DNA of 64,000 nucleotides from assembly GCA_021771815.1 (NCBI GenBank), contig JAETOE010000003.1:1-64000 (forward strand), in the 5' to 3' direction. The notes under the pieces were generated by a model. That model worked only from the letters and a program-made list of their open reading frames with translations. It ran no database searches and was not told the DNA's origin. Position 1 is the stretch's first letter. The number at the start of each line of letters is the position of its first letter. Shown in pieces: positions 38,113-46,469 of this stretch. This DNA comes from Roseburia hominis (lineage in GTDB: Bacteria; Bacillota; Clostridia; Lachnospirales; Lachnospiraceae). The translations under genes were made by a program, and so were the position numbers.

Positions 38113-38922
38113 TTATTCAGATAAAACGCAGGTATAAACGCGCCGTGCAAGCAAGACAGTCCCCACAGAAAACACTGCAATAGCAAGCTCTGTGACAGCC
38201 AGCGGCAGAGAACCGAACTGATAGAATGCTGCAAAGAGATCTATCGCTGTGTGCAACAGTATTGCAAGAGAGAATAAATAAAATTTACCCTTAACTTTTA
38301 CAGATGCAAATACGAGCACTGACATGGAAATATGGAAAATCAGGGTAAAAAAGCGTTCCCAGATGCTCCAGAGAAACATGCCGGGACCTGCGGTCGTAAG
38401 CGTGACGACGACGGATTCATAGACCGCAGCCTGGTCTGCCGGAAGCCCGTTTGTGAGCAAATCGATCGTTCCGTTGTTGATGGCAAAGGCAAGCATCAGG
38501 TTTGAAAGCATTCCAAAGCCAATCAAAAGCACGCATTCGATGCCGCCGTGTCCGATGCCGTAGGAAATGGCATCTTTCCGTGCCGAATGCTTCTTCAAGA
38601 AAAAGCGCATGGTAACGTACCTGCCGCATTCCTCGAAAACGCCCGCTAAGAGCGCGCCCATGAGACTATATGCCCAGCTATGGGATAAAATGTAGCCGGA
38701 GACGGCATTCTTATCGGCGAAGAGAAAGTATTTTGGAATACTTTCCAGTACCAGCGCCGCGATAATAAAGGTCAGCGCGCCCGCCAGCGCCGGAAGCAGA
38801 CTGCATTTCTTTTTGACTTTCCATATGATCAGCAGAATGACCGGTCCAAACAGGGTGACGATCATGGAAAGGATCATTCCTGCGATGGCGGAAGCGGATA
38901 CAAATTCAGTCGTTGTGTTCAT
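38113..38922 (-). CDS. yhfC: YhfC-family intramembrane metalloprotease
   Basis: 269-aa polytopic membrane protein of the YhfC/CAAX-protease-like group. Likely zinc ligands are FEECGRYVTMR near residue 90 (EExxR) and GHGGIE near residue 123 (HxxxE), each at the start of a helix. About eight helices. Its target is unknown. It is the last gene of a MerR-YbjQ-YhfC operon, starting 28 bp after ybjQ, with AAAGGAG before the ATG. Confidence 0.87.
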   Translation of the reverse strand: MNTTTEFVSASAIAGMILSMIVTLFGPVILLIIWKVKKKCSLLPALAGALTFIIAALVLESIPKYFLFADKNAVSGYILSHSWAYSLMGALLAGVFEECGRYVTMRFFLKKHSARKDAISYGIGHGGIECVLLIGFGMLSNLMLAFAINNGTIDLLTNGLPADQAAVYESVVVTLTTAGPGMFLWSIWERFFTLIFHISMSVLVFASVKVKGKFYLFSLAILLHTAIDLFAAFYQFGSLPLAVTELAIAVFSVGTVLLARRVYTCVLSE

Positions 38923-38950: not shown

Positions 38951-39265
38951 CTAGTTTAAAATTTTGACGGCAGTCCCGTAAGCGACTACTTCCGCGGCGC
39001 TCTGCATCATAGAGGACGACGCGAAACGGATGTTTAAGACAGCGTCCGCGCCAAGGGATTCGGCCTCGTCAACCATGCGCTTTATGGCAATCTGTCTTGC
39101 TTCATTTAACATTTCGGTGTAATCTTTGATTTCACCGCCGACGAGCGTTTTCATGCCCGCCATAAAATCTTTTCCGAAATTCTTGGACTGCACGACCGTG
39201 CCTTTTACGATACCGAGAGCCTCGATTTCTTTTCCGGGAATGTAATCAATATTTAGTAGCTTCAT
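38951..39265 (-). CDS. YbjQ-family putative heavy-metal-binding protein
   Basis: 104-aa YbjQ/UPF0145 protein of pentameric fold, cytosolic, function unproved. It shows YIPGKEIEALGIVKGTVVQSKNFGKDF and the SLGADAVLNIRFASSSMMQSAAEVVAYGTAVKI ending. Its start lies 20 bp inside the MerR gene, with the GGAGGAG ribosome site also inside it, so the two are translationally coupled. Metal binding is predicted only from older family naming. Confidence 0.9.
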   Translation of the reverse strand: MKLLNIDYIPGKEIEALGIVKGTVVQSKNFGKDFMAGMKTLVGGEIKDYTEMLNEARQIAIKRMVDEAESLGADAVLNIRFASSSMMQSAAEVVAYGTAVKILN

Positions 39266-41203: not shown

Positions 41204-41221
41204 GTGAAAGGGTACGAATGA
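41204..41221 (+). promoter_or_regulatory. Five-codon upstream open frame coupled to the first Tad-like gene
   Basis: AAGGAG (41192-41197) is 6 bp before GTG (41204), which reads five codons to TGA at 41219-41221. That stop overlaps the ATG at 41218. The ATG itself has no good ribosome site at normal distance (the AAGGAG is 20 bp away), so start-stop coupling may deliver ribosomes to it. Confidence 0.4.
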
Positions 41222-41850
41222 ATATTGTGTTTTGGGGAGAAGCGCGTCAGTGCGGTACGACAGCCAATCTGATTGCAACTGTAGGAGTGCTGTCTGCAAT
41301 TTGCCCGCACAGAACGTCCGGCATCGGCAGAGGGGCAGAGACGGCTATGGACAAGTATGAATTTCATTTCTATGACGGCGGTTCTGCTCTTACGGAACGC
41401 AAGCGGCGGATGCTTAGGCGGGCGGATCTTGTCGTAGTGAACTTAAGGGAGGAGACGTCGTGTCTGGAACGTTATGTCTGCATGGACTGGCATCTGGCAA
41501 GGCGGACGCTGATTCTGCTCGGCAGTTATTGTGGGGATGTGAAAGTGAGCAAGGCTTATCTTGAGAGAGTATACCGCATTCCAAAGGAGCAGGTAATTGT
41601 AATCCCTTATAACAATGAATTTCATCATGCAATGTTGAAAAATCGCGGCAGAACTTTTGTGGAACACGAGGCTGTTGCTCCGGCGAATCAGAAGAATGAG
41701 CGGTTCGTAGAAGCATTCAAAGAAACGGTGCATTTCATCTTAAGAACAGAGCGGCAGATTGCCGCAGAGAAGGAGAGGAAGGCGTATCTGGTAAAAGAGG
41801 TACAGACAACTGTAAGGAGACAAAGGAGGAAGGAACTATGGAACAGGTAA
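41218..41850 (+). CDS. TadZ/CpaE-like protein with degenerate P-loop
   Basis: 210-aa protein resembling the MinD/ParA-like TadZ/CpaE positioning factors of Tad pilus systems. The N-terminal GEARQCGTTANLIATVGVL stands where the Walker A loop would be but lacks its signature lysine. RRADLVVVNLREE near residue 67 resembles the second motif. The C-terminal tail is strongly basic. In Tad systems such proteins place the machine at the membrane. It overlaps the next gene by 13 bp. It is the first gene of the operon; identification rests partly on context. Confidence 0.7.
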   Translation: MNIVFWGEARQCGTTANLIATVGVLSAICPHRTSGIGRGAETAMDKYEFHFYDGGSALTERKRRMLRRADLVVVNLREETSCLERYVCMDWHLARRTLILLGSYCGDVKVSKAYLERVYRIPKEQVIVIPYNNEFHHAMLKNRGRTFVEHEAVAPANQKNERFVEAFKETVHFILRTERQIAAEKERKAYLVKEVQTTVRRQRRKELWNR

Positions 41851-42005
41851 TGAAACACTACGGAAACGCAATCTTGGCGATTGTAGTATTATTGGCCCTG
41901 GGGGCGATCGTGATTGCTGCACTCTCGGCGGACGGGTATGTGGCGACTGCGTTTAAGGATGCGCTGACGGGCTTTTTTAGCAGCATGAATGCCTTGGCGT
42001 CGTAG
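41838..42005 (+). CDS. Flp-like small pilin candidate (55 aa)
   Basis: 55 aa: MEQVMKHYGNAIL, then a 20-residue hydrophobic helix (about residues 11-31) and a short polar tail (TAFKDALTGFFSSMNALAS). Size, helix and tail fit Flp/Tad pilins, but there is no long basic leader or GF/E-type prepilin cleavage motif. Its opening resembles that of the 48-aa and 159-aa proteins later in the operon. GGAGGAAGG ends 6 bp before the ATG. It overlaps the gene before it by 13 bp. Confidence 0.75.
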   Translation: MEQVMKHYGNAILAIVVLLALGAIVIAALSADGYVATAFKDALTGFFSSMNALAS

Positions 42006-42018
42006 GTAGGAGGAGCAC

Positions 42019-43083
42019 ATGGGGGAAATGCTTAACTATGAGCCGACCGAGGCGCAGTTTGGGGTGTTCTGGAAATATCTTATGCAGCCCGGCGTGACGG
42101 ATGTGGATTACAACGGAAAGGAATTGTGGATCACAGATTTAAAGAGAGGGCGCTATCGTGCGAAAGAACGGCTGTCCGAGCAGTTCATCAGCGCATTTAC
42201 ACACAATATCTCAAATTGCGTCAACAAGCAGTTCAACAATGCAAATAAAATATTGGAGGCGGATACAAGAGAATTGAGAATCAGCATTATACATGATTCG
42301 GTCGCGGCTTCGGGAATCAGTATCTGTATCCGCAAATCCCCCTGTATCGTCAGGTGCAGCATAAGGCGGCTGCTTGCGGAGGGGTACTGCCCGGAATGTG
42401 TGCTGCATCTGTTGATGAATTGCGTTCGGGCGGGCATGAATTTTGTGTTCGGCGGGGAACCGGGGGCGGGCAAGACGGAGAGTGCAAAGTTTTTTATGCA
42501 GTTCATCCCCAGGGAGGAACGTGTCATCACGATCGAGGATTCGCTTGAAATCCACTATGCAGACATTAATCCGGGGGCAGATGCGGTAGAACTTCGTGTA
42601 GGAGCAGGCTTTACCTATACGGATGCGATCAAGGCGAGCCTCAGACAGAACCCCAAATGGCTTGTTCTCTCGGAGGCGCGTTCCGTTGAGGTGACGTCGC
42701 TTTTGGAACAGTGGAGTACGGGGGTGAGCGGATTTACGACCATTCATCTGGATGATGTGAGAAAATTGCCGGACCGCATTCAGAATATGATGAGCGACAC
42801 GCGTGATGCCGAGCGGATGGAGAACCGTATCTACCGCTATGTGAATGTCGGTATTCTGATCCGGTGCCTAAAGCTTGCGGACGGAAGATTGAAGCGTTAT
42901 ATCGACCAGCTCTGCTTTTATAGCAGAGAGGGCAGGCAGAACCGCATTCACATGGTGATAGAAGATGGGGAACTGGCGTCAAAGGAACTGCCGCCTGAAA
43001 TTGCCAAGCGGCTTGCACAGGCGGGGATTGCAGATCCATTTTGCTGTGTGGATTGGGAGAAATATATAAGAGAGGGGAAATAG
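42019..43083 (+). CDS. TadA/CpaF-type secretion ATPase
   Basis: 354-aa type II/IV secretion (VirB11/CpaF) ATPase that should power pilin assembly at the inner membrane. Walker A GEPGAGKTE is near residue 149, the Asp box ITIEDSLEI near 173, the atypical Walker B WLVLSEARS near 215 and the His box FTTIHLDD near 239. It is shorter than classical CpaF because the N-terminal extension is reduced. AGGAGG precedes the ATG. Its stop abuts the start of the fused TadBC gene. Confidence 0.9.
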   Translation: MGEMLNYEPTEAQFGVFWKYLMQPGVTDVDYNGKELWITDLKRGRYRAKERLSEQFISAFTHNISNCVNKQFNNANKILEADTRELRISIIHDSVAASGISICIRKSPCIVRCSIRRLLAEGYCPECVLHLLMNCVRAGMNFVFGGEPGAGKTESAKFFMQFIPREERVITIEDSLEIHYADINPGADAVELRVGAGFTYTDAIKASLRQNPKWLVLSEARSVEVTSLLEQWSTGVSGFTTIHLDDVRKLPDRIQNMMSDTRDAERMENRIYRYVNVGILIRCLKLADGRLKRYIDQLCFYSREGRQNRIHMVIEDGELASKELPPEIAKRLAQAGIADPFCCVDWEKYIREGK

Positions 43084-44622
43084 ATGGCAGAGAAGAAGAG
43101 ACTTTTGGGGAATTTCAAATTGCTGCATCCAAAGAATCTGGAGAAGGAAGTGCATGTGTACGGTTACCATTTTTCGTGGAAATCGAATATGGTGTGGATG
43201 ATCGGAGCAATGCTTGGTATCAGTGCGGTCGGGATTTTGTTTCAGCTTCGATGGCTGTACTTTATGATCGTGGCTGCAGCGGTGGTGCTTGTGGTTCCGG
43301 TTCTGGTGTTGGACATGTATCGGAGAATGTATGAACAGAAGCGTTTTTCAGATGTCTGCGCTTATATGGAGCAGATGCTCTATGCATTTCAGAAGACGGG
43401 AAAAGTGGTAAGCGCGCTAAAGGAGACGCGGGAAGTTTTTGGGGAAGGACAGATGCGCCGCTGCATCGAGGAAGCAATTCTACATACAGAATTTGGCAGA
43501 GCGAAAAGCGAAGGAGGAATCTTAAGGGAAAGTCTGCAGATTATAGAAAACTGTTATATGTGCGGAAAACTGGGGCTGGTACATAAGCTGCTGCTTGACA
43601 CGGAGGAGTACGGAGGGGAGGCGGAAGAGTCCATAGTGCTTGTGCTCGAGGATATTGAGCGTTTTCGGAAAAGAGGGTATTCTCTGCAGGCAAAGAAGAA
43701 AAGATGCCATACGGACAATATGATTTCTATCGTGGTGGCAACATTTTTGTGTGCGGTGGCGCTATATGTGCTGGATGCGATGAAAGATATGTTTGCGGCG
43801 GGGAGTGCCGTGGATATCTTTAAGCTTCCGGTCATTCAGGTATCTTCCACGGTATTTATCCTGCTATTGCTTCAGATCTATGTGAAAAGCGCAAGGCGTC
43901 TGACGGAGGACTGGCTTGCAGAAAAGGAGCTGCATGACCCTGCATATATCCTGCGAAGCTATGATATGATCGTATGTTACGATGCGGGGAAGGAGAAGAA
44001 GAGGGGAATGATTTTTGCGGGGATCTGGATGATTTCGGCGGCGGCGTTTCTCGTTATAGGAAAAAGAATTCCCGGAATGGCGTGCCTGCTTGCGTCAGCG
44101 TTCTTTCTGCTGCAGCCCGGAGCGTCGTATCGTTTAGCGAACCGTGATGTCACGGCGGAACTGTATCAGGCGCTGCCGCAGTGGTTATTCGAGATGCTTT
44201 TGTTGCTGCAGAACAACAATGTACAGGTCGCGCTTGCAAAGTCCGCAGAGGGGGCGCATGCTGTGCTGACGAGAGAACTTGTCATGCTTCAGGAGCGGAT
44301 TGCGGAAAGACCGGACAGCCTGAAATCTTACGTTGATTTCTGCGGCAAATTTGATTTGCCGGAGATGACAAGCTGTATGAAGATGCTGCACGCGTTTTCG
44401 GAAAGCGGTACAGGAAATATCCGTGTGCAGATGAATCATTTGCTGGAACGCGTCGTGGAGATGCAGGAGAGCGCGGATGAAATGCAAAATGACAGCATTG
44501 CGTTTCGGATGAAGCTGATATTTTCTTATCCGGTCGCGGCGGCAACGGTAAAGCTGTTGATCGATCTTTCCGTGGGAATGATCGTTATGATGCAGATATT
44601 AGGAAATATGGGAGGAATGTAG
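43084..44622 (+). CDS. Fused TadB-TadC-like inner-membrane platform protein
   Basis: 512-aa polytopic protein with two similar halves. Each half has two helices, a cytosolic helical domain and one or two more helices. Half 1 (residues 1-275) has helices near 36, 55, 220 and 255. Half 2 (276-512) has helices near 302 and 322, a cytosolic part with LYQALPQWLFEMLLLLQNNN, and a final helix near 480. This matches the GspF-like TadB and TadC, which are normally separate roughly 300-aa proteins. It starts directly after the ATPase stop and ends 1 bp before the next GTG. Confidence 0.8.
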   Translation: MAEKKRLLGNFKLLHPKNLEKEVHVYGYHFSWKSNMVWMIGAMLGISAVGILFQLRWLYFMIVAAAVVLVVPVLVLDMYRRMYEQKRFSDVCAYMEQMLYAFQKTGKVVSALKETREVFGEGQMRRCIEEAILHTEFGRAKSEGGILRESLQIIENCYMCGKLGLVHKLLLDTEEYGGEAEESIVLVLEDIERFRKRGYSLQAKKKRCHTDNMISIVVATFLCAVALYVLDAMKDMFAAGSAVDIFKLPVIQVSSTVFILLLLQIYVKSARRLTEDWLAEKELHDPAYILRSYDMIVCYDAGKEKKRGMIFAGIWMISAAAFLVIGKRIPGMACLLASAFFLLQPGASYRLANRDVTAELYQALPQWLFEMLLLLQNNNVQVALAKSAEGAHAVLTRELVMLQERIAERPDSLKSYVDFCGKFDLPEMTSCMKMLHAFSESGTGNIRVQMNHLLERVVEMQESADEMQNDSIAFRMKLIFSYPVAAATVKLLIDLSVGMIVMMQILGNMGGM

Positions 44623-44958
44623 GTGAAGTATATTGTCGAGGCATTTGGGGTCATGGTGGTATTGGTGTGCAGTCTCTTTTTGTGCGTTGGAGTGATCGGG
44701 GTAAGCGCGGACGTCGCCGCGGCAAGGGAATATAAGGCGGATGTAATTGCGGAGATCGAGAACAGCAACTTTAATCCGAATGTGATTGCAGCATGCAGGC
44801 AGCAGGCGGCGCAGGCGGGGTATGAGCTGAATGTTTCATCCTATTATTATGATGTGCAAAGCGACAGGCGGATTGCGGAGGTGGAACTGACGTATGCCTA
44901 TGAGATACCGCTGCTTAAGATCTCACAGCAGAAGGTAACGCGCGGGATCGCGAGATAG
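44623..44958 (+). CDS. Small pseudopilin/TadE-like membrane protein
   Basis: 111 aa, GTG start immediately after the previous stop, with GGAGGA upstream. One N-terminal hydrophobic helix (about residues 6-30, FGVMVVLVCSLFLCVGVIGVSADVAA), then an extracellular domain with IENSNFNPNVIAACRQQAAQAGYELNV and a Tyr-rich strand. The layout fits a minor pilin of the TadE/TadF type, but no TadE motif is clear. Part of the operon by spacing. Confidence 0.75.
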   Translation: MKYIVEAFGVMVVLVCSLFLCVGVIGVSADVAAAREYKADVIAEIENSNFNPNVIAACRQQAAQAGYELNVSSYYYDVQSDRRIAEVELTYAYEIPLLKISQQKVTRGIAR

Positions 44959-45055
44959 TAAGAGGAAAGAGAAAAGCAGTGCGCTTGGTGTGCAGGACCT
45001 GGTGCAAAGGAGGAGAAAAGCGGCAAATTTAAAGAGCGGGAAAGGAGGAGATGCG

Positions 45056-45172
45056 GTGAGCCTTGAGTTTGTGATCGGGGAATTGGGAAGTACGCTGTTT
45101 GTCCTGCTTGCAGGGGCGGCGGGAATCGGTATGGCGTATGAGGTGTTAGAGTATGTGTCTGTGCTGTTGTAG
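45056..45172 (+). CDS. 38-aa single-helix membrane protein
   Basis: GTG start at 45056, 7 bp after AAGGAGG (45042-45048), stop at 45172. The product, opening MSLEFVIGELGSTLF, is almost wholly one hydrophobic helix. Its pattern E-F-V-I-x-x-L-G-x-x-L-F aligns with the N-termini of three other products of this operon. The frame could begin further up at a GTG at 44990, but that start has no good ribosome site. It is probably a structural subunit or substrate of the Tad-like machine. Confidence 0.6.
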   Translation: MSLEFVIGELGSTLFVLLAGAAGIGMAYEVLEYVSVLL

Positions 45173-45217
45173 AGATGAAAAGGAAAATCTGTAATTGAGG
45201 AAAGGAGGAGAACGGAA

Positions 45218-45364
45218 TTGGAGGATATCATTGAAGTCTATGGAGGAAGCCTGCTGCAGGTATTGGGAGGCATATGTGCCATGTCGTTGTTTGCCGCCCT
45301 GTATGCGGATGGAGGCATGATTTTTTATATTGTGCAGCAGTATATGACCGGAATTTGTGGATAG
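45218..45364 (+). CDS. 48-aa single-helix membrane protein (TTG start)
   Basis: TTG at 45218, 9 bp after AAGGAGG (45202-45208), stop at 45364. The product opens MEDIIEVYGGSLLQVLGG, then has a hydrophobic helix (LQVLGGICAMSLFAALYADG) and a short tail. It shares the ME-x-aliphatic-aliphatic-x-x-Tyr-Gly opening with the 55-aa Flp-like protein and the 159-aa protein, and sits between them and the 38-aa gene with operon spacing. No ATG gives a comparable frame. Confidence 0.6.
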   Translation: MEDIIEVYGGSLLQVLGGICAMSLFAALYADGGMIFYIVQQYMTGICG

Positions 45365-45379
45365 GGGGAAACCGGGAAA

Positions 45380-45859
45380 ATGGAACAGATTATCAGACAA
45401 TATGGAAAGTTTTTGTTTGAAGCAGCGGTTCTTGCGGCACTGACATGGCTCTTATTTACAGGACTTTTGGACGCGCAGGGGAACAGGGGTGTTTTGGCGA
45501 TTGCGGGAGCGGGGCTTGCAGAGGAAGAGACGGTTTTGCAGCGCGAAGATATAAGGTGCTATGAGAGAGAATGTGAGAAGAGTGCGCCGACCATTTCTTA
45601 TGTGGCAGACGGTATATTGTATACAGGCGATTATGCAGTAGAGGAAATTTTGTATGCTTCGGACAACATGGGAAGTCCGGTGGCTGTTCGCATAGAATCC
45701 GTAAGCAGTCCACGGGGAAGCGTGCAGACGTATACTGTCAGTATAGAGAATATTACGTTCGGCGAGCGCGGCGTTTATACATTATGCGCTTCCGCCGTGG
45801 ACGCATCAAACAGGAAAGCGGTCTACAGGTTTACAATACCCGTAAACGGATGGAGGTGA
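45380..45859 (+). CDS. Secreted or anchored 159-aa protein of the Tad-like operon
   Basis: Opens MEQIIRQYGKFLF, then one hydrophobic helix (about residues 12-30), then an outer domain of about 125 aa. That domain is predicted beta-rich (YTGDYAVEEILYASDNMGSPVAVRIESV ... VSIENITFGERGVYTLCASAVDASNRKAVYRFTIPV), like an Ig-type fold. The opening matches the two small proteins, so the three probably enter the same assembly. The beta domain may be a tip adhesin. No function has been established from sequence. Confidence 0.7.
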   Translation: MEQIIRQYGKFLFEAAVLAALTWLLFTGLLDAQGNRGVLAIAGAGLAEEETVLQREDIRCYERECEKSAPTISYVADGILYTGDYAVEEILYASDNMGSPVAVRIESVSSPRGSVQTYTVSIENITFGERGVYTLCASAVDASNRKAVYRFTIPVNGWR

Positions 45860-45863
45860 CGGG

Positions 45864-46469
45864 GTGAAGCATGCAATGATGATATTTGTCGGTGGAATGC
45901 TTGGGATTCTTACGTTGGCGGTGATACTGACAATCGGGAGCGCTATGAACAGGAGAAATGAGCTGCAGAGCAGCCTTTCCAATGCAATGGAAGAAACGGT
46001 AGGATGGATCGCAGCGGATACGGAGCACGAGGATAAAGATATGATGGCAGTGGCAGCATGTGCGGAGGCTTTGGCATTTGCGGCGGACACAGACTCTGGC
46101 ATTACGGTGAAGGTGTATCAGGCGGATATGCAAAAGGGGGTATTGACAATGAAAGTGCTTGAGAATTTCTGTCATCCGAACGGGAAAAGAGGTACGGCGG
46201 AGTGGGAGAGGACTGTGATTTATAATCGAAGGAAGGCAGATGAGCCGGAAACGTATGAGGTACGTTTTTATCAGAACAGGGAGATGATGGTCAGAGAAGA
46301 AAACTGTTATAAGACGTGTGAGGTGCTTGGTGGAGAGCATATTATACCGCCCGCAGAGCCAAAGGCGGAGGGGCGGGTATTCGGCGGTTGGATAGATACC
46401 AATGGGTATATGGCAGATTTTTCACAGCCGGTCGAGCAGAATCTTATTTACTATGCTTCATGGGAATAG
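45864..46469 (+). CDS. Surface protein with C-terminal InlB-type repeat (Tad-like operon)
   Basis: 201 aa, GTG start 4 bp after the previous stop with GGAGG before it. A hydrophobic N-terminal helix (about residues 6-27) is followed by an outer region and a final segment FGGWIDTNGYMADFSQPVEQNLIYYASWE that fits the InlB B-repeat / Listeria-Bacteroides repeat pattern (F-x-GW ... YA-W). Such repeats are found on surface proteins. As last gene of the operon it may be an anchored or tip component. Confidence 0.75.
   Translation: MKHAMMIFVGGMLGILTLAVILTIGSAMNRRNELQSSLSNAMEETVGWIAADTEHEDKDMMAVAACAEALAFAADTDSGITVKVYQADMQKGVLTMKVLENFCHPNGKRGTAEWERTVIYNRRKADEPETYEVRFYQNREMMVREENCYKTCEVLGGEHIIPPAEPKAEGRVFGGWIDTNGYMADFSQPVEQNLIYYASWE

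Follow-up and report, generated by a model that had tools for sequence, protein, structure and literature searches.

What kind of machine is encoded by the nine tightly packed genes at 41218-46469 of a 64,000-nucleotide stretch of Roseburia hominis DNA (contig JAETOE010000003.1; the whole stretch is hereafter called the window)? The original prediction, made from the sequence alone, had described a compact Tad-like pilus or secretion operon and had put it forward as the strongest candidate in the window for an undescribed system. We find that the operon is real and conserved, and that it is a distinct branch of Tad-like machinery. We lean slightly toward reading it as a minimal machine of the Tad-like kind that forms its own class and displays a giant adhesin via a short pilus-like stalk. 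Overall, the interpretation given in the original prediction is partly supported.

The operon and its conservation

All nine open reading frames (ORFs) are present on the + strand and open, with neighboring genes overlapping or lying 0-97 bases apart and a strong ribosome-binding site in front of most of them; the start of gene 2 lies inside gene 1 (13-base overlap). Genes were called by ORF length and ribosome-binding site, a procedure that may misplace the starts of short genes and that missed some operon genes. Only gene 6 required correction, its start being moved from 44990 to the GTG at 45056 (38 residues, AGGAGG upstream), which is the most likely one. The proposed anatomy, with six small membrane or secreted proteins, is otherwise upheld. 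The genes, and what each assignment draws on, are as follows.

41218..41850, + strand: gene 1, degenerate MinD/ParA-fold protein (TadZ/CpaE-like), 210 residues (AlphaFold2 model, Foldseek, alignment)
41838..42005, + strand: gene 2, 55-residue mini-pilin-like peptide, MEQVMKHYG followed by a membrane helix (alignment A5, logo)
42019..43083, + strand: gene 3, CpaF/VirB11-superfamily ATPase with an intact Walker A motif (T2SSE, trees, PDB profile search)
43084..44622, + strand: gene 4, two-domain membrane platform of the fused TadB-TadC type, 512 residues (AlphaFold2, Foldseek, hhalign)
44623..44958, + strand: gene 5, TadE-like protein of 111 residues with an N-terminal membrane helix, DUF4320-like (alignment A9, DUF4320)
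45056..45172, + strand: gene 6, 38-residue mini peptide with an ELG variant of the motif (ribosome-binding site and start check, logo of the 35-residue family)
45218..45364, + strand: gene 7, 48-residue mini peptide, MEDIIEVYG followed by a membrane helix, TTG start (ribosome-binding site, logo of the 48-residue family)
45380..45859, + strand: gene 8, 159 residues, MEQIIRQYG N terminus and a probable immunoglobulin (Ig)-like C-terminal domain (alignment A11, weak PKD and Ig-like matches)
45864..46469, + strand: gene 9, 201 residues, N-terminal membrane helix, DUF5411-type body and C-terminal List_Bact (InlB B) repeat (Flg_new, DUF5411)

Of 200 genomes from the window's family, its own counted, 27 have a relative of the platform protein; the weakest match (genome G013, E 5e-4 over 95 residues) is possibly a false one. 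Named genomes, scanned with a CpaF profile, yielded at least 561 relatives, of which the best 80 loci were taken. By record title, these best 80 belong mostly to Lachnospiraceae or to genera usually placed there, with Roseburia hominis (strain An869, locus L089, is a carrier), R. porci, Lactonifactor longoviformis, Faecalicatena, [Clostridium] fimetarium, Lachnobacterium bovis and Anaerostipes among the carriers; many metagenome-assembled genomes are also included, two of which are titled Erysipelotrichaceae. In 73 of the 76 loci with a called ATPase ORF, an ORF of platform size comes immediately after it, and the small genes recur around it. The usual order is a protein of 55-60 residues, the ATPase, a platform of 420-510 residues and proteins of 110-125, 35, 48, 150-180 and ~200 residues, often followed by one of 600-1900 residues. 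The 110-residue gene is placed later in some loci, and many contigs stop within the operon. In loci L117 and L120 (Candidatus Fimousia, Anaerostipes) the operon takes a variant form, with the 53-residue mini gene near its end and two genes that look TadE-like. The source genome of the window holds three copies of the operon, which we call cassettes.

An ATPase clade outside Tad

In a single-sequence Pfam scan of the window proteins, only the ATPase passed a cut-off (T2SSE, 65.8 bits against a cut-off of 24.9). Its NCBIfam scores, all under the cut-off, are led by VirB11 (3e-26), followed by TadA (1e-20) and ComGA (7e-13). The G-K-T of the Walker A motif is unchanged across 18 aligned members. 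In a first tree of 45 rows, from which locus L253 is missing because no ATPase ORF was found in it, 18 cassette ATPases lie on one side of a branch (support 100/99); their neighbors are 17 Tad rows (98/98), and PilB and PilT stand apart. A second tree of 44 rows adds pLS20-type, VirB11 and TrbB rows and omits three rows of the first (one cassette, one Tad, one PilT-like) as well as six PilB rows; archaeal ATPases are in neither tree. Here 17 cassette rows and three Bacillus/Virgibacillus plasmid rows form one clade (98/98), which, with a midpoint root and long branches present, falls outside Tad plus VirB11/TrbB (96/84). The cassette clade is thus separate from Tad in both trees, and it is not of the PilB or PilT type, PilB forming another clade in the first tree and PilT in both. 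The prediction of a single CpaF ATPase holds for the superfamily; judged by the place of its clade in the midpoint-rooted tree, gene 3 is not simply a Tad CpaF. These trees place the operon ATPases together with those of pLS20-type Bacillus plasmids in a new clade outside Tad plus VirB11/TrbB.

The original prediction had named two findings that would point to a known or decaying system, namely clustering with competence or type IV pilus genes and small proteins that are not conserved. The ATPases do not group with PilB or PilT in the trees, ComGA appears by NCBIfam score only, and the small proteins are conserved.

A PDB search with a profile lacking Tad CpaF and PilT-like rows (A3) returned 2oap, which we take to be the archaeal GspE, as the best match, followed by two VirB11-like entries and then by CpaF. 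The preference for CpaF seen with our first profile (A2) was due to the canonical Tad CpaF and PilT-like rows included in it. We also considered a Sulfobacillus plasmid ATPase as a clade member and set it aside, as it falls outside the clade in the tree, although a joint clade is not rejected (approximately unbiased test, 0.19); the plasmid (pL15, locus L264) is conjugative and of another lineage, and on it a gene annotated as type II secretion F comes after the T2SSE-type ATPase. Cassette-type ATPases (51% and 42.5% identity) are found in MT837507.1 and MT835474.1, two records titled 'Bacteriophage sp.' from human faeces, which are perhaps host or mobile-element sequence deposited as phage. 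In viral contigs, 36 pattern matches contained no relative.

A fused platform protein

Gene 4 had been read as a fusion of TadB and TadC, and this is borne out: T2SSF is matched by 16 of 66 aligned platform members at E <= 1 (best 4.6e-5; DUF2207_C is second with 14), the two halves are homologous to each other (hhalign 79%) and the predicted structure is PilC-like. The TadB and TadC platform proteins are present here as one fused protein. The window platform passes no Pfam cut-off, and PDB profile searches for it and for gene 1 gave nothing under E 0.1; we therefore used predicted models for both. The AlphaFold2 model of the platform (64 sequences; predicted local distance difference test (pLDDT) 93.3, predicted template modeling score (pTM) 0.86) resembles PilC of the type IVa machine, 3jc8_Ca being its first Foldseek match in the PDB (prob 1.00, E 0.011, TM-scores 0.23/0.34); a viral structure library gave no match under E 0.001. 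Compared with Tad proteins of the family, the N-terminal half aligns to TadB at 62% and the C-terminal half to TadC weakly, at 9% (hhalign). The N-terminal half aligns at 94% over 242 columns to a 267-residue protein encoded beside the pLS20-type ATPase, and the C-terminal half at 65% over 90 columns to a 245-residue pLS20-type protein. By these profile comparisons, the platform looks like two pLS20-type proteins fused into one, a relationship that is new.

Small peptides without a classical prepilin leader

Four families of small proteins have in common a short N terminus, MKxxxEEYG, which runs directly into a membrane helix. The pattern M-x(4-8)-[YHF]-G is found in 144 of 205 operon ORFs shorter than 80 residues and in 54 of 64 ORFs of 130-185 residues, versus 42 of 825 other ORFs, a background that is inflated because missed operon genes are counted among the others. 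The motif is borne by 54/72, 41/60, 46/59 and 54/66 rows in the ~57-, 35-, 48- and 155-residue families, respectively. In logos drawn from these rows, in which the aromatic residue and the glycine are present by selection, methionine occupies position -8 in 92-98%, usually followed by K, D, E or Q, with I or F at -5 and E or Q at -2. Rows of alignments A5 and A11 and of the mini-family hhalign profiles were also chosen for the motif (in A5, most of them), so that its conservation in A5 is partly by construction. The mini families are homologous to each other (89-97% in five tested pairs of six), a result helped by this choice of rows. Window genes 2, 6, 7 and 8 carry KHYG, GELG, EVYG and RQYG, respectively; a degenerate DNA pattern for the motif had 0 matches in the window. 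Identical tandem small-peptide genes occur at L050:5461-5631/5687-5857 (a family genome) and at L258:12128-12271/12298-12441 (a pLS20-type plasmid).

The classical prepilin leader, G/xxxxE(Y), is seen neither in genes 2, 6, 7 and 8 nor in the family logos, in line with the original prediction. At E <= 5, 3 of 40 members match Flp_Fap (best 0.076) and 1 of 40 matches Flp1_like (2.9e-5). In hhalign comparisons with Flp, the 57-residue family reaches 26% and the other families 3% or less; a reversed control for the 57-residue family against Flp_Fap gave 1.9%. Two readings of the motif remain. In one, the leader has been lost and EYG corresponds to E5-Y6-G7 of Flp; in the other, EEYG ends a leader that is cut after the glycine.

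The second reading would make the operon a divergent ordinary Tad pilus, in which a 9-residue leader is cut after Gly9 by a prepilin peptidase encoded on contig C43 and the peptides polymerize without Glu5. A whole-genome search for Peptidase_A24 (PF01478) gave matches on C43 only, where a separate Tad locus encodes a Flp1-like pilin and two prepilin peptidases; neither this search nor one for T2SSE placed a TadV or a second ATPase in the window, as had been predicted. All 27 platform-positive genomes have Peptidase_A24 genes in trans, and MSH loci that lack a peptidase of their own may borrow one (PMC6668835). The Flp1-like pilins of the family, aligned to the 57-residue profile, place its EEYG on their leader end EEDG, at 1.9% only. 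Yet Peptidase_A24 occurs somewhere in 199 of 200 family genomes, so its presence is no evidence and an operon without TadV says little; we consequently dropped the absence of a prepilin peptidase as an argument. The mini peptides rarely have glutamate at +5 (13% and 11% in two families, with none listed for the remaining two), the cassette ATPases fall outside Tad, and in one source-genome cassette a Flp1-like profile match above the cut-off (L040:12237-12455) begins at profile position 10 only. An ordinary Tad pilus is thus a possible but rather unlikely explanation. This L040 ORF is an extra one in its cassette; its core equals that of the Flp1-like pilin of the C43 Tad locus, but the ORF lacks leader and Glu5 and may have a membrane helix ahead of the core.

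Giant surface proteins with a common C-terminal module

Of 69 candidate large ORFs downstream of the operon, 36 (29 from loci other than the seeds) have a C-terminal module in common, which ends 19 or fewer residues from the C terminus in 32 of the 36, seven seeds included. Their N-terminal parts vary and include a subtilase (L137), an ALK/LTK glycine-rich region (L061), a beta helix (L085) and List_Bact/InlB-type repeats. An N-terminal hydrophobic segment is present in 26 of the 36; by a simple test, none has an LPxTG-like motif or a C-terminal membrane segment. In the 200 family genomes, the module is found in 19 of 27 platform-positive versus 1 of 173 other genomes (Fisher p 2.4e-19), the lone platform-negative genome with a module being 74% complete. 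Of the 58 loci with 7.5 kb or more of downstream sequence, 35 have it linked to the cassette. Module and cassette lie on different contigs in G038, G083, G122, G143 and the source genome (contig C26), and in G110 the contig that carries the cassette is too short for a judgment. The source genome contains three strong module matches (one on C26, two on C37) and a fourth on C53 that covers 40 residues; three full-length lipoprotein genes are located at the same places as the strong matches, with weaker partial matches on C51 and C64. The orphan pair of lipoprotein and module protein on C26 is the likely partner of the window cassette. At the level of sequence, large surface proteins with differing N-terminal ends are shown to have a common module at the C terminus, the occurrence of which tracks that of the machine, a finding that is new.

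These proteins could also be the cargo of a machine resembling the type II secretion system, with the small peptides forming a pseudopilus piston that releases them into the medium. The subtilase domain on one cargo and the missing LPxTG-like motif in all 36 would fit such a system, and an operon of this type has been classed as secretion-related (PMC9523054). In monoderm cells, a second export step after Sec is unneeded; most of the module proteins have their own N-terminal hydrophobic segment, and several carry adhesin-type repeats. We consider release into the medium improbable.

A display machine would work differently. The ATPase and platform would lift the small helical peptides from the membrane into a short pilus or stalk, the tip of which may be made of the Ig-bearing, TadE-like and DUF5411 proteins. 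The giant protein would be exported by Sec, dock at the tip through its C-terminal module and, held on the surface, could mediate attachment to cells, mucus or fibre. The filament, the processing and the docking of the adhesin are all inferred, and several observations weigh against this display machine. The small peptides lack the classical leader and match Flp profiles weakly, the PilC match of the platform model is not under E 0.001 and the PDB matches that follow it look like chance, and the TadE and TadF assignments (DUF4320, DUF5411) draw on weak matches. The window cassette has no adjacent giant protein. No module match is found in 8 of 27 platform-positive genomes and no linked module in 23 of 58 long loci; the one cassette-encoded giant protein with a thioester domain, that of L055, lacks the module, and its genome, G098, has no match to it. 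Cassette-linked proteins supplied the module profile, some of them from species in the 200-genome sample, and for this reason the 173 platform-negative genomes and the unlinked cases weigh most. Taking all this together, our preference for the display machine remains a slight one. For gut bacteria, it would offer a candidate mechanism for a widespread, unexplained surface operon, and the module can point to cargo elsewhere in the genome.

Relatives on conjugative elements

Two of the three source-genome cassettes are located on contig C37, among conjugation genes. The first is surrounded by a TraG-type coupling protein, a topoisomerase, ArdC and a Tn916-type integrase, the second by a weak integrase match (below the cut-off), a VirB4-type AAA_10 protein and a lysozyme/NlpC protein. 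Each of these conjugative gene sets (L151/L040/L152 for the first, L041/L153 for the second) comes with a cassette, a lipoprotein and a module-bearing giant protein.

A tblastn search of plasmids with the ATPase matched 3444 records, the 25 best of which are from Bacillus (23), Virgibacillus (one) and Campylobacter (one), at 27-31% identity. L258 has an annotated gene of the pLS20_p028 family, and the other Bacillus plasmids are presumably pLS20-type as well. Their operons encode a large adhesin-like protein, two or three short genes, the ATPase, two platform-like genes, a 120-residue gene and small genes, with DUF4320 on the Virgibacillus 120-residue gene and VirD4 in L258 and L259. They thus share with the cassettes the ATPase clade and two platform-like proteins in the same order; a large adhesin-like protein lies upstream, and the thioester domain found in L258 is also present on the module-free giant protein of L055. 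In contrast, their platform proteins are separate and their genes embedded in a conjugation set, a location shared by the two C37 copies and not by the window copy, and their small peptides give no profile match to those of the operon (hhalign 0.3-1%). The C-terminal half of the L258 adhesin is 37% identical over 434 residues to that of Virgibacillus, while the N-terminal parts have no BLAST match. We tested homology between this C terminus and the module and found none (hhalign 0.1%); the design is the same, with an unrelated C terminus. No LPxTG-like motif is present in the last 90 residues of two pLS20-type adhesins. The adhesins at L258:5381-7717, L259:4035-6599 and L265:2254-4557 end in a conserved GWSQSD(I/V)(N/D)WLKK.

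On pLS20, the thioester adhesin Tie is needed for efficient conjugation (PMC8092201) and has been localized to surface foci and the cell-wall fraction (PMC11730352); the portions of these two papers that we examined do not link the pLS20 ATPase to a pilus. The operon might accordingly be a conjugation accessory, a mating-pair attachment device of mobile elements whose chromosomal copies have been captured. The conjugation genes around the C37 copies would agree with this, as would the role of Tie and the grouping of the cassette ATPase with one that follows a thioester-domain protein. However, in 96 other loci with flanks of up to ~9 kb, TraG-like genes turned up in 3, ParM-like genes likewise in 3 and a topoisomerase in 1, counting the locus that supplied the query, and the VirB4, ArdC and integrase queries had no match. 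Furthermore, the window copy is flanked by proteins of housekeeping types, upstream a glutamine amidotransferase-type protein, adenylosuccinate lyase, MerR and DegV, and downstream CorC, IMP dehydrogenase, a HisA-type protein and glutamine synthetase. No VirB4/VirD4-type gene of a type IV secretion system was among these eight scanned flank proteins (38113-38922 and 38951-39265 lie outside the scan). When five of the flank genes served as queries, 26 of the 80 named loci had one or more of them close to the operon, and 7 had matches on both sides; because of this recurrence, the window copy probably occupies an old chromosomal site. A conjugation accessory is an account that we doubt.

The display machine may have a wider form. 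Lachnospiraceae chromosomes, conjugative elements and pLS20-type plasmids could together hold a third class of the Tad/VirB11 superfamily, a contact filament of unprocessed, leaderless mini-pilins on which interchangeable giant adhesins are docked by a C-terminal module. We put this forward tentatively and regard it as rather unlikely in full. Gram-positive conjugation systems seemingly lack a pilus, and attachment and mating-pair formation are poorly understood (PMC8092201, PMC11730352). If such a class exists, its members on mobile elements would supply Gram-positive conjugation with the attachment pilus that it has long seemed to lack; if the 'VirB11' beside Tie is a Tad-like display motor rather than a DNA-transfer ATPase, this gap becomes testable in Bacillus subtilis, for which the plasmid is in use in laboratories. 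Pilin-like peptides that are independent of a prepilin peptidase would change a rule for type IV filaments.

A decaying, functionless Tad remnant would explain the missing TadV, the small gene set and the degenerate Walker A motif of gene 1, but it is highly improbable given nine open frames with usable starts, ATPase motifs invariant in 18 members, a gene order that recurs in several genera, three copies in the source genome and a platform in 27 of 200 genomes.

Comparison with known systems

The suggestion that the system is undescribed does not hold: a predicted 'secretion-related' operon of 8-9 genes from Roseburia, Ruminococcus and Eubacterium, with CpaF, a PilC/GspF-like protein, DUF5411 and an internalin-B-like protein, was reported in 2022 (Nat Commun, PMC9523054), with no mechanism given and left uncharacterized. 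It shares with ours the CpaF, GspF-like, DUF5411 and internalin-B-like components, the gene number and the genus Roseburia, although DUF5411 is weak here and is found together with List_Bact repeats on the gene 9 family. From this common signature, we infer gene-by-gene identity of the two operons. In the literature searched (most subscription papers and all preprints lying outside it), we recognized no other description of the operon, and DUF5411 or DUF4320 appeared in PMC9523054 only. Many new Tad systems have been reported in Clostridia (PMC6668835).

The operon shares with the Tad/Flp pilus (type IVc) a CpaF-superfamily ATPase, a TadB/TadC-type platform and small helical peptides, and its putative TadE-like and MinD-like proteins may be further common parts. 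It differs in its ATPase, which is outside the Tad clade, in its fused platform and in the absence of a classical prepilin leader and of TadV. The Kil pilus of Myxococcus (PMC12075869) is similarly one machine with interchangeable large tip proteins. Kil tips, however, are processed pilins with leaders, whereas the giant proteins here have their own N-terminal hydrophobic segment (26 of 36) and a C-terminal module.

Remaining genes

Gene 1 passes no Pfam cut-off. Its AlphaFold2 model (pLDDT 88.3, pTM 0.85) matches FlhG, ParF, MinD and ParA in the PDB (Foldseek, best E 1.1e-5, prob 1.00), and its Walker-A-like stretch has no lysine in 10 aligned sequences, the window's included, the relatives having been picked by eye from upstream ORFs. 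Since the fold is of the MinD/ParA type and the lysine is missing, describing gene 1 as a P-loop-degenerate TadZ/CpaE-like protein was reasonable. In the gene 5 family, DUF4320, which we take to be a TadE-like mark, is matched weakly by 2 of 34 members (best E 0.036). Weak PKD and Ig-like matches are found in 4 of 43 members each of the gene 8 family, and none in the window protein. PHROGs matches of the window proteins are to families of unknown function. In the gene 9 family, Flg_new (the C-terminal List_Bact repeat) is matched by 14 of 35 members and DUF5411 weakly by 5 of 35 (best 0.0049) at E <= 0.1; the window protein scores 19.8 bits with Flg_new, under the cut-off of 27.

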